64,000 nt of DNA from an uncultured Clostridia bacterium (lineage in GTDB: Bacteria > Bacillota > Clostridia > RUG12999): assembly GCA_946555455.1 (NCBI GenBank), contig CAMNSU010000004.1, positions 1 through 64,000 of the forward strand. Direction: 5' to 3'. The position numbers were made by a program, and so were the translations under genes. The notes under the pieces were generated by a model. It was not told the origin of the DNA and did no database searches. It worked only from the letters and a program-made list of their open reading frames with translations. Positions 24,084 through 27,667 of this stretch are shown here, piece by piece (position 1 is the stretch's first letter; each line of letters begins with the position of its first letter).

Positions 24084-24111
24084 TACCTTTTTAGTTAGGA
24101 GCGTGGGAAAT

Positions 24112-24546
24112 TTGAACAAGATAGGAACGCGGTTAAAGGCAATCCGCAAAAATGCTGGCTACAAACAGTGGCAAATAAGTGAGAAATTAGGACTAGCGAA
24201 GCATTCATATGGAAGTTATGAAAATGATAATTCTATTCCGTCTATTTCTAAATTTATTGTTTTGGCGGAAATTTTTCAAACGACTGTTCAGTTTATCATA
24301 ATAGGAAAAGAATTTCCTGCAGATATTTGGTCGGAAAAGGTCACACCTTTCTCTGAGAGATTAAAAGAACTACGCATTCAAAATGGATTTACGCAAAAAG
24401 AGATTGCAAAAGAATTGGGAGTTCATTTTAGCAACTACCAGAAATATGAAAACGCAACATGTGAACCCAAACTGGAAAGTCTTATCAAATTGGCAGATTT
24501 GTTTGATGTAACATTGGACGAGCTGATGGGGCGGAACCGGAAATGA
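24112..24546 (+). CDS. double XRE-type HTH regulator, first of a tandem pair
   Basis: A 144-residue protein with two Cro/C1-type domains in one chain: NKIGTRLKAIRKNAGYKQWQ... (residues 1-60) and FSERLKELRIQNGFTQKEIA... (about 83-143), joined by IFQTTVQFIIIGKEFPADIW. I chose the TTG at 24112 because its product aligns with the ATG start of the next gene (NKIGTRL) and TAGGAG lies 10 bases upstream; a GTG at 24103 is too close to that site. The gene overlaps the next by four bases. Confidence 0.78.
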   Translation: MNKIGTRLKAIRKNAGYKQWQISEKLGLAKHSYGSYENDNSIPSISKFIVLAEIFQTTVQFIIIGKEFPADIWSEKVTPFSERLKELRIQNGFTQKEIAKELGVHFSNYQKYENATCEPKLESLIKLADLFDVTLDELMGRNRK

Positions 24547-24977
24547 ACAAGATAGGAACGCGGTTAAAACTTTTGAGAACACAAACAGAATATACCGGAC
24601 ATCAAATGAGTGAAATGCTGGAACTATCAAAAAGTGCTTATGCTAATTATGAAAATGGCGTTAGTAAACCATCTTACGAAAAATATATTAAAATTGCAGA
24701 AATTTTTCAAACGACTGTCCAGTTTATTATAACAGGAAAAGAACTTCCGGCAGATATTTGGTCAGAGAAAGTCACGCCATTCTCGCAGAGACTAAAAGAA
24801 TTACGGTTGAGAAATGGTTTTACACAAGATGAAATGGCTAAAATATTAGAAATTGATTTAAGAAATTATCAGCAATATGAGTATGAAAAGTGTACACCAA
24901 AACTAGAAAAACTTATCAAATTAGCAGAACTGTTTGACGTAACATTGGACGAGCTGATGGGACGGAACCCAAAATAA
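24543..24977 (+). CDS. double XRE-type HTH regulator, second of a tandem pair
   Basis: A 144-residue paralogue of the preceding gene with the same two-domain layout and the same linker IFQTTVQFIITGKELPADIW. Its ATG is inside the stop of the first gene (ATGA), so both are made in fixed ratio and may form a heterodimer. The pair arose by tandem duplication. Two HTH domains per chain would suit a dyad operator such as the one at 24063-24077. Confidence 0.82.
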   Translation: MNKIGTRLKLLRTQTEYTGHQMSEMLELSKSAYANYENGVSKPSYEKYIKIAEIFQTTVQFIITGKELPADIWSEKVTPFSQRLKELRLRNGFTQDEMAKILEIDLRNYQQYEYEKCTPKLEKLIKLAELFDVTLDELMGRNPK

Positions 24978-25034: not shown

Positions 25035-25063
25035 TTGAACTACAAGTTAAAACGTGGTATACT
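25035..25063 (+). promoter_or_regulatory. promoter of the small hydrophobic peptide RNA
   Basis: TTGAAC (25035-25040), 17 bases, TATACT (25058-25063). Predicted RNA start near 25070, with 5' end AAGCAGATATAGAGAG. Confidence 0.65.
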
Positions 25064-25138
25064 AAACTATAAGCAGATATAGAGAGTATCAGAAGGCGGT
25101 TTGCCACCCTTTATACTACAGGAAAGGGGGTGGAGCTT

Positions 25139-25210
25139 ATGCAATACATACTAAAGATTTTAGCATTCGTTTTGATAATTTTAGTTGTTTTCAGCATAAA
25201 AGCACAATAA
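25139..25210 (+). CDS. 23-residue hydrophobic peptide, candidate type I toxin
   Basis: Starts MQYILKILAFVLIILVV and ends FSIKAQ: one predicted membrane helix with a single Lys near each end. A strong GA-rich ribosome site (GGAAAGGGGGTGGAG) precedes the ATG; a GTG three codons upstream is an alternative start. The gene has its own promoter at 25035-25063 and ends in a hairpin shared with a convergent minus-strand RNA. Size, composition and layout fit membrane-acting type I toxins such as those of the par/Fst, TxpA and Clostridioides RCd systems, although the peptide sequence is not one I recognise. Toxicity is inferred. Confidence 0.6.
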   Translation: MQYILKILAFVLIILVVFSIKAQ

Positions 25211-25294
25211 CCGCCCTCCTGACAAAGTAAGCGGTTATTGTTAATCAAAAACTTATTTTGGCAAACCGTCCTTAAAACGGTCTCTCTGTATCTG
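25195..25294 (-). ncRNA. candidate antisense antitoxin RNA
   Basis: A full-consensus minus-strand promoter, TTGACA (25328-25323) and TATAAT (25305-25300) with 17 bases between, fires toward the peptide gene. The RNA would start near 25294 with a 5' end almost the same as the peptide mRNA (AAGCAGATACAGAGAG) and stop at a hairpin (25205-25214 with 25231-25240) followed by TGCTTTT on its own strand. It would be complementary to the last codons and terminator of the peptide mRNA. It contains no open frame. Confidence 0.6.
25205..25240. terminator. shared bidirectional terminator of the convergent RNAs
   Basis: CAATAACCGC (25205-25214) pairs with GCGGTTATTG (25231-25240). The loop on the plus strand contains CCTCC, which could pair with the GA-rich ribosome site of the peptide gene. 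Confidence 0.65.
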
Positions 25295-25299
25295 CTTCT

Positions 25300-25328
25300 A
25301 TTATATCCCCTAAAAGTTGATTTGTCAA
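25300..25328 (-). promoter_or_regulatory. consensus promoter of the antisense RNA
   Basis: TTGACA and TATAAT with a 17-base spacer on the minus strand; both boxes match consensus at every position. The rest of 25329-25501 shows no feature. Confidence 0.75.
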
Positions 25329-25501: not shown

Positions 25502-27667
25502 ATGAAACGACATATCGCATTGTTGCTTTGTTTGGCGTTGTTTTTGGGCGGCGGCGTCAGCGCGGCGGGAGATGGTTCCCAAGGTGATACATATTTCATG
25601 GAAAACGGCATGGAATTTAGAATTTTTGGCGGAGAAGCGTGGGTAACGGTGCCCAAGGGGCGTACCGGCAGTATCACTATTCCGGCGGAAGTACGCGGCT
25701 ATCCTGTGACGACGATAAAACGCTGCTATGCGGACGTGACTTCTGTCACGTTACCCGACAGTATACGCGTCATTGATAAATATGCGTTTTGCGGCTGCGC
25801 CGCTTTGCAGCAAGTGCGCGGCGGAAACTGCTTGGAGCAAATCAGGGAGTCCGCGTTTGAACACTGTGTGAATCTCAAAGAACTGACCTTGCCGGACAGC
25901 GTCTATTATATCGGCGATTTTGCGTTCTATGCTTGCAGCAGCCTGCGACGTATTGATTTAGGCGCTTCTGTGCAAAGTTTGGGATTTTTTTGTTTTGCCT
26001 ATTGCACGGCGCTGGAAAAAATAGAACTGCCCGATACGGTTGTTGTCATGGAAGATGAGGCGTTTTCGCACTGCACGGCGCTGAAACAAGTGCGGCTTTC
26101 GCAGCAGCTCGCAAAGCTGGAATTTGCGCTTTTTGAAAACTGTACGGCGTTGGAGAAAATAGAATTGCCCAAGTCCGTCACCGCCATAGACCCATATGTG
26201 TTCCAAAACTGCACGAATTTACGCCGAATCACCATTCCGGATTCCGTGCAGTCGGTTGGCAGAAATGCGTTCAGGGGCACTTTGTGGCTGGATTCCCAGC
26301 CGGGACCGTTTGTGTGTATCGGCAGCGGCATTTTGCTGAAATATAAAGGAACTGAGACGGAGGTGCGGGTGCCGGACGGTATCCACACTATTGCGGAGGA
26401 CGCTTTTCACAGCCACCGGACAGTTTGTCGGGTGTTTTTGCCCGACAGTGTGCAGACAATAGAAGATAATGCGTTTTGGGGCGCCGGACGGCTGGAATCC
26501 GTGCGTATTCCGCTCCATTGCAGCTATAGCGATAAGGCATTTAGGCATACGCCATATGCCTATGTTACATATGGAAATTATGTTTATGCGGACGGCGCAA
26601 TATATACGCCGGACCGCAGTCAGCTTGTATGCTTCCCGCGTTTTGCAACAACGTTTGAGATTCCGGAGGGTGTGCGTTCTTTGCACGAGGACGCCTTGGC
26701 ATATGCAATCTATCTGGAGAGCGTGACGCTTCCTGCCAGTTTGGAAACGTTTTCGCGCTTTGCGGATAACCGCCATATGAGCGACTTTCCACTTGACCGC
26801 GATTGCCTGAAACAAATTCATGTTGCCGCCGAAAATCCTGTCTATATGGATATTGACGGCGTGTTGTTTTTGCGTGAAGAACAAACGCTATATTGCGTTC
26901 CGCCCGCGCTGGATACGGCTGACTATACCGTACCGGCGGGAACCGGCGCTATTGACGCATACGCCTTTTATGGCTGCTGGGCGCTAAAAACCATCACATT
27001 GCCTGCCGCGCCGCTGGAAGCAAAGGCGGGCGCATTTTGGGGCGGCGAAAATTGCCGGTTCACGTTAAACGCCCCGCCGGAGGCAACGCTGCACAGCGGC
27101 GGGCGCAGCAGTGTGGATACGGTGGTGACACAGTCCAGCACCTCGGCGGAAGCGTTTGCAAAGAGCAGCGCATGTTCCTATGTGCTGACGGACAAAGAAA
27201 ATGCGGTATTTACCTATTTGCGCGACGGTGAATATGATTATGGGATTTATCGGTACGATAATTTTCATATCTGCACGCTCTATGGCGAGGACTATGTTTC
27301 CTTGGAAGCATTGTCGGACTTGCTCCGCGGCACAGGCTATGCCTTTGGGTTTACATGGCAGACGCACCCTGCACGTATTACAATGAACCGAAATTTGTCG
27401 CCGGCGGGCGGTGTTCCCGATTTTCCGCAGCCGCCGGAAATGGGATTTCCTGTTACCGGTTGCCGTGCAACGGTAATGAATGGCGGCGCTGGTATGGCGA
27501 TGGACGCCTGTTTGGTAAATGACCGCCCGTTTGTGGCATTGGAATCGGCGCTTCACTGGCTTGGGCTTAGCACAACAGTGGCGGACTATTATAATTACTA
27601 TGATTTTTCGCTGCCATTCGTTCCGCTCGGCGTGGATTTGGAGGACTATCCGATTTACTGGTGGTAA
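25502..27667 (+). CDS. secreted BspA-like leucine-rich-repeat protein with stalk-like C-terminus
   Basis: A 721-residue protein with a signal peptide (MKRHIALLLCLALFLGGGVSA) and about a dozen BspA/LRR_5 repeats of the type LPDSVxxIxxxAFxxCxxLxxI (about residues 65-330 and again 390-490). The C-terminal 130 residues (YVSLEALSDLLRGTGYAF ... RPFVALESALHWLGLS) resemble two copies of the copper-amine-oxidase N-terminal-like stalk domain common in Clostridial surface proteins. BspA-type repeats are linked to adhesion in gut bacteria. No SLH or LPXTG anchor is present, so it may be released or held by the stalk domain. GGGGGT precedes the ATG. Confidence 0.82.
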   Translation: MKRHIALLLCLALFLGGGVSAAGDGSQGDTYFMENGMEFRIFGGEAWVTVPKGRTGSITIPAEVRGYPVTTIKRCYADVTSVTLPDSIRVIDKYAFCGCAALQQVRGGNCLEQIRESAFEHCVNLKELTLPDSVYYIGDFAFYACSSLRRIDLGASVQSLGFFCFAYCTALEKIELPDTVVVMEDEAFSHCTALKQVRLSQQLAKLEFALFENCTALEKIELPKSVTAIDPYVFQNCTNLRRITIPDSVQSVGRNAFRGTLWLDSQPGPFVCIGSGILLKYKGTETEVRVPDGIHTIAEDAFHSHRTVCRVFLPDSVQTIEDNAFWGAGRLESVRIPLHCSYSDKAFRHTPYAYVTYGNYVYADGAIYTPDRSQLVCFPRFATTFEIPEGVRSLHEDALAYAIYLESVTLPASLETFSRFADNRHMSDFPLDRDCLKQIHVAAENPVYMDIDGVLFLREEQTLYCVPPALDTADYTVPAGTGAIDAYAFYGCWALKTITLPAAPLEAKAGAFWGGENCRFTLNAPPEATLHSGGRSSVDTVVTQSSTSAEAFAKSSACSYVLTDKENAVFTYLRDGEYDYGIYRYDNFHICTLYGEDYVSLEALSDLLRGTGYAFGFTWQTHPARITMNRNLSPAGGVPDFPQPPEMGFPVTGCRATVMNGGAGMAMDACLVNDRPFVALESALHWLGLSTTVADYYNYYDFSLPFVPLGVDLEDYPIYWW

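Follow-up and report, generated by a model that had tools for sequence, protein, structure and literature searches.

The window, a 64,000-nucleotide stretch of a contig from an uncultured Clostridia bacterium (CAMNSU010000004.1), holds at positions 25035 to 25328 what is probably a chromosomal type I toxin-antitoxin (TA) candidate of the bsrG/SR4 kind, compact in layout and with a toxin mRNA that would fold end to end. An earlier note on this DNA had proposed a convergent type I system of new arrangement in which both RNAs begin with nearly the same sequence. Comparison with related loci indicated that these mirror 5' ends are the two arms of a predicted helix, P1, which closes the toxin mRNA end to end. 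The peptide is very probably a membrane toxin silenced by an antisense RNA. Computation on MAG or genome sequence established the parts of the locus and how far they are conserved, together with the covariation and the strand bias, and the locus is confirmed to be real, beyond chance.

Organization of the locus

Two facing promoters with 17-base spacers were read directly in the sequence, as the earlier note had described. The toxin promoter on the plus strand (25035-25063; TTGAAC at 25035-25040 and TATACT at 25058-25063) is kept in paralogues, and the antitoxin promoter on the minus strand (25300-25328; TTGACA at 25328-25323 and TATAAT at 25305-25300) is of full consensus. The predicted toxin RNA starts with AAGCAGATATAGAGAG at 25071 and the predicted antitoxin RNA with AAGCAGATACAGAGAG at 25297; the near identity of these starts and the CGGTTTGCCA further in each RNA (25097-25106 on the plus strand, complement at 25259-25268) are likewise present.

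The one-helix peptide noted behind a strong ribosome site corresponds to a 23 aa hydrophobic ORF, MQYILKILAFVLIILVVFSIKAQ (25139-25210, plus strand), delimited by sequence, paralogues, hydropathy and codon comparison, and its ribosome binding site AAAGGGGG (25123-25130) recurs as the same motif in paralogues, where the frame is conserved. Folding placed the Shine-Dalgarno (SD) sequence in a local hairpin (25105-25132, arms 25105-25112 and 25125-25132). The two RNAs meet at one hairpin, as had been claimed, which sequence and a family-specific pattern located at 25206-25239 on both strands (AATAACCGC...GCGGTTATT); the toxin stop codon TAA (25208-25210) lies within its stem, and it forms the predicted antitoxin terminator and the likely first-contact loop. 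The candidate antitoxin RNA, of about 100 nt and starting near 25297 (25198-25297, minus strand), was delimited by promoter, hairpin, a covariance-model hit at 25198-25299 and the alignment of 27 antitoxins. The hydrophobic ORF with its ribosome site is thus kept while the antisense promoter and terminator hairpin are conserved on the minus strand, which argues for the convergent type I candidate proposed before.

The 5' arms of the closing helix, P1a (AAGCAGATATAGAGAG.ATC, 25071-25090) and P1b (AAGGCGGTTTGC, 25093-25104), were identified by MFE fold, RNAalifold and covariation, and the 3' arms, P1a at 25279-25297 and P1b at 25261-25273, the latter antisense to the antitoxin leader, by covariation and MFE fold; all four lie on the plus strand. 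The antitoxin 5' stem-loop ACCGTTTTAAGGACGGT (25265-25281) was found by folding, and its complement stands with a U-rich stretch on the toxin strand.

Two tandem helix-turn-helix genes lie upstream (24103-24546 and 24543-24977). Such tandem small regulator genes adjoin TA loci both in the window (24103-24977) and at L117:5765-6569, and the end of one small helix-turn-helix gene was seen upstream of the C11 copy. The long ORF downstream (25502-27667) looks by eye like a leucine-rich-repeat protein. In many toxins the lysine codons at the end, AAAAAA directly ahead of the stop (25193-25210 in the window, and relatives), are read on the other strand as the U-tract of the antitoxin terminator, so that the lysine tail of the toxin may be dictated by the RNA.

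Family members and their distribution

A blastn search with the locus gave six matches in its own genome, while the antitoxin covariance model found 15 places there, several as tandem pairs or triplets, and 8 and 11 places in two same-genus genomes (Clostridia MAGs JAAWTG01 and CATIYX01), both of which carry several full copies of the locus; the order is small and uncultured, and nine of its genomes were covered. A total of 42 candidate loci with hairpin, in-frame ORF ending at the hairpin stop, ribosome site and antitoxin promoter were assembled; L082, L083 and L084 were doubtful and were omitted from most counts, leaving about 40 complete loci. Since the loci were picked by hairpin, ORF and antitoxin promoter and not by the repeats, the repeat test given below is not circular. 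The search of Clostridia suggested in the earlier note yielded a family, and the peptide frame is conserved in its related loci.

The hairpin pattern TAACCGCCCTCC-N4-18-GCGGTTA (R/Y allowed) occurred in 6 of 391 class genomes and the reversed-pattern control in none; overall, the strict pattern hit 61 stretches of genomes and 8 of viruses, some of them unrelated, and the candidate loci were drawn from these hits. The hosts comprise Agathobaculum species, Oscillospiraceae and Defluviitaleaceae MAGs (judged by the record names, many come from termite-gut projects), a Lachnoclostridium, a few Bacilli and viral contigs, the IMG/VR members being L114:2727-2980 and L115:5393. As predicted from these loci, the end-to-end layout is spread over many gut and termite-gut Clostridia. 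The approximately 40 loci code for peptides of 20-39 aa, almost all of them hydrophobic; a strong ribosome site precedes each ORF, and its stop lies in the shared hairpin. Antitoxin promoters are near-consensus in nearly all loci and toxin promoters are usually weaker.

Several copies are rearranged. Four TA modules lie among CRISPR-like repeats ATTTCAATCCACGCGACCCTTGCGGGTCGCGAC at L117:6640-8337 (G001:C377, CATIYX010000377.1), the last cut by the contig end; these modules split the repeat between ATTTCAATCCAC and GCGACCC, and repeat-spacer units were duplicated along with them. Orphan antitoxin halves at L005:1500-1630, L022:1500-1620 and L023:1500-1620, in three genomes of the genus, retain promoter, leader and hairpin and have lost the leader of the toxin and the greater part of its ORF. 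In the first copy of a tandem pair (L004:952-1310, G000:C10) an insert of about 270 bases, its ends inverted (CTACCCTCTCTTGACA / TGTCAAGAGAGGGTAG), splits the toxin ORF and leaves the antitoxin side intact. The genus also has a second clade built in the same way (L135 and L136 of G000:C112, L139, L153 and L154), with leaders of the type GGCAAGACCTCAAACGGTTATGCC and partly in tandem arrays.

Candidate toxin peptide

Peptides of close relatives are 20-26 aa long, with GRAVY values mostly of 1-2 and often KK or KAQ at the end. Frame, SD and stop-in-hairpin are kept in paralogues and distant relatives, and gaps or indels within aligned ORFs are multiples of three. Codon differences are mainly synonymous in some pairs (3:0 for the L018 copies, 5:1 for L057/L059) but not in L001/L002 (1:4); coding selection on the toxin ORF is thereby suggested, not proven.

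In profile searches the window-type peptides matched nothing in Pfam or NCBIfam at E <= 1, nor was the Fst peptide motif found in the window peptide by these databases at that threshold. The Hol_Tox profile (PF16935) matched neither the window peptide nor anything else in its own genome above the curated cut-off; two distant members with the same hairpin, L053 and L115, do match Pfam Hol_Tox. Rfam revealed nothing in the window and, on 20 related loci, only a marginal rli28 match (L053) and weak BsrG/ctRNA matches (L059). Neither the 294-base locus nor TxpA had a match in the phage and plasmid collections, so that this comparison set lacks txpA/RatA itself.

Mirror 5' ends and helix P1

Comparison of 18 divergent loci showed a same-sense resemblance between the toxin leader and the antitoxin leader of its own locus, with a mean score of 13.3, where non-partners reach 7.9 (0 of 20000 permutations), while complementarity between partner leaders in the style of par/Fst was at chance level in these loci (p 0.35). 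The 5' ends are thus alike and not complementary, as the earlier note had stated. The leader-leader duplex energy was marginally lower for partners (p 0.045), a value which was not relied on. The mirror sequences differ by clade: GCAGATAYAGAGAG in the window, GGCAAGACCTC or GGTAAGACCTC in G055 and other same-genus loci, AAGGCACTGTCG in Agathobaculum, AAGGTGTT in L104 and TATAGGGAGCATAC in L098. The two promoter spacers of the window are unlike each other and identity starts at the transcription start, indicating that the constraint on the mirror ends begins at the RNA start.

If the ends matter through pairing, G-U wobbles are expected to be tolerated on the pairing strand. Transitions between partner leaders, counted over all loci, keep G-U on the toxin strand in 97 cases versus 15 on the antitoxin strand. 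In 21 representatives the wobble count was 51 on the toxin strand versus 8 on the antitoxin strand (41:8 with the CGG motif masked), and the bias is partly compositional, as the non-partner control also shows 1.5:1 (272:182). The asymmetry was significant (Fisher p 0.001; by-locus sign test 15 to 1, p 0.0005), and one-sided wobbles of this kind point to a toxin-strand RNA whose 5' leader pairs with its own 3' end.

RNAalifold on the genus alignment recovered P1 with two-sided changes. In the clean alignment 89.9% of P1 cells are paired versus 39-51% for slid partners, and six pairs changed on both sides, which is the covariation that had been asked for in the end repeats; none of 500 shuffles reached this percentage, although kinship among the loci weakens both this control and the permutations above. 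The strand bias and the replacement of the arms between clades are stronger arguments for P1 than the shuffles.

Other explanations of the mirror ends were weighed against these data. Identical leaders could be a common 5' module, a stability element or the site of one factor, carried by both RNAs with the long-range pairing as a by-product; identity from the transcription start in both RNAs, unlike promoter spacers and the local hairpin formed also by the antitoxin 5' region agree with it, but it predicts neither the one-strand G-U preference (51:8) nor that bsrG, with a different antitoxin start, should have the same arms, and we regard it as unlikely. Gene conversion between inverted repeats could by itself keep the ends alike without any function, since short inverted repeats about 200 bases apart are convertible and the ends are indeed alike within a locus and different between loci. 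Conversion should not, however, halt at the transcription start, and it leaves both the strand-specific wobble bias and the pairing kept through two-sided single changes unexplained, which makes it a quite improbable account.

The earlier note had also named an inactive mobile element (MITE) with 25071-25297 bounded by terminal inverted repeats. Inverted ends about 190 bases apart and many copies per genome, several in tandem, would suit such an element. Both promoters, however, lie outside the repeats and are yet conserved, the ends vary between clades but stay matched within a locus, ORF, SD and hairpin are kept, identity begins at the transcription start and not in the spacers, and the C4 and C11 copies, whose flanks were read, show no target-site duplication in common; this origin is therefore highly improbable. 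Scarcely any probability attaches either to a par/Fst-type system with the repeats as second antisense contact. The convergent promoters, shared hairpin, SD hairpin and 5' sequestration of the locus resemble par (PMC7472228), but Fst repeats are direct and their RNAs complementary, and it is excluded on repeat orientation by the chance-level leader complementarity; the window peptide moreover matches no Pfam or NCBIfam entry. Closure of the toxin mRNA by P1 is the reading, held to be probable, that is followed below.

Predicted fold and 3' end of the toxin mRNA

The plus-strand RNA of the locus had a predicted folding energy of -81.5 kcal/mol, where dinucleotide-shuffled versions gave -46.7 +/- 4.0 (z -8.75, 0 of 200), and the MFE structure closed end to end in all 15 divergent full-length toxin RNAs folded. 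Compared with a shuffled 3' arm, the full fold of 39 loci gave a mean z of -6.4 (range -9.5 to -1.8). The earlier suggestion that a read-through mRNA folds end to end is borne out as to the fold but not as to a rare product, because the strand-specific wobble bias implies that the 3' arm is routinely part of the toxin RNA and that end-to-end pairing is probably its normal state.

The further suggestion that this fold hides the ribosome site was not upheld. The mean predicted unpaired fraction of the SD was similar with the 3' arm and without it (0.28 at full length, 0.22 truncated), and P1 was rejected as an SD lock, the local hairpin covering the SD either way. The leader was predicted to be freer without the arm (0.44 unpaired, versus 0.32 with it). 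Protection of the mRNA ends, the masking of a standby site or the timing of antitoxin access would be a more likely role for P1 than hiding the SD directly.

The complement of the antitoxin 5' stem-loop is a good-looking toxin-strand terminator in Agathobaculum, L104 and L114, with a clearer form also in L057. In the window this terminator form of the 3' structure is weaker and its U-tract weak; we infer that it ends the toxin mRNA there, and the shared hairpin could be an alternative end.

Comparison with known systems

The leader of SPbeta bsrG (CTGTACATAAAGTTTGCTCA...CTTGCTC) has its pairing partner, GAGCAAGCCCTTTGATGGGCAGCTTTTGTACAG, downstream of the ORF. These inverted arms are the same as in P1 of the family, and the three base substitutions in them are all toxin-strand wobbles. 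The pairing agrees with helix P1 of bsrG, which is reported to have been probed and to have its 3' part bound by SR4 (PMC6562991, PMC7430163). The bsrG/SR4 and bsrE/SR5 systems of Bacillus subtilis SPbeta and other prophage-like elements are similar to the locus in being convergent, in an antitoxin that pairs with the mRNA 3' part, in an SD held in a short stem and, as computed here, in a toxin 5' leader that pairs with a 3' arm (P1) also covered by the antitoxin. The antitoxin promoter is also the stronger one in bsrG/SR4, that of sr4 being 6-10-fold stronger than that of bsrG (PMC7430163).

Unlike the locus described here, bsrG possesses a separate toxin terminator downstream of P1, which places the start of SR4 farther out, and its two RNAs begin unalike. 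Such an extra hairpin beyond P1 is present in L053, L058 and L093 and absent in the window and most relatives, with the consequence that in the latter the antitoxin start falls at the P1 arm and the two RNAs share their opening sequence. Of the new arrangement that had been proposed, the compact form without a separate toxin terminator therefore stands, while the inverted arms already exist in SPbeta bsrG/SR4 as P1. BsrG differs in its peptide as well, having 38 aa and belonging to another sequence family than the 23 aa window peptide, which has no Pfam match.

The Hol_Tox group (TxpA-RatA, bsrH and Listeria rli28-RatA) is approached by L053 and L115, Hol_Tox peptides with the same stop-in-hairpin, the former also matching Rfam rli28; the genome of the window nevertheless gave no Hol_Tox match, and Rfam gave none in the window. 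In hok/Sok the 5' and 3' ends of the toxin mRNA also pair, but the antitoxin targets the 5' leader, there is a coupled leader peptide, and the gene layout differs. The par/Fst locus of pAD1 consists of convergent RNAs with a shared bidirectional hairpin, an SD hairpin and a sequestered 5' end, and its direct repeats give complementary leaders (PMC7472228). The locus shares all of these features except the last, its repeats being inverted, and its peptide is of another family. By sequence, the locus is best classed as a compact bsrG/SR4-like variant with new peptide families, and neither as par/Fst nor, by profile, as Hol_Tox.

Proposed mechanism and implications

The plus-strand mRNA would code for a small membrane-active peptide, and the minus-strand RNA of about 100 nt would be the antitoxin, complementary over its entire length to the mRNA's 3' part (ORF end, shared hairpin and 3' arm). 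The toxin mRNA probably ends near the antitoxin start site, so that its first approximately 35 nt may pair with its last approximately 35 nt as P1, with the local hairpin covering the ribosome site in the folded molecule. Both RNAs would start alike because each is a strand pairing with the same 3' arm, the toxin leader within the mRNA and partly by G-U wobbles, the antitoxin perfectly and in trans. By analogy with bsrG/SR4, first contact would occur at the loop of the shared hairpin and spread into the 3' arm, displacing the mRNA leader and leaving RNase III an extended duplex as substrate. In this scheme transcription and toxicity, as well as the order of pairing and decay by RNase III, are inferred.

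We tentatively put forward, as a possibility rather than an expectation, that the shared 5' end is a strand-exchange device in which the antitoxin is a perfect-match copy of the wobble-weakened 5' arm, always able to displace that arm. If so, the number of wobbles in P1 would set the speed of antitoxin takeover, and joint change of both arms would let duplicated loci in one genome become partner-specific.

Genes for peptides of 20-26 aa escape annotation in Clostridia, and inverted 5' ends, a stop in the shared hairpin and one-sided wobbles may together serve as a signature for unannotated type I loci of this class. The data also tie a helix studied in bsrG-type mRNAs to evolutionary constraint over dozens of loci, which would make its role testable.
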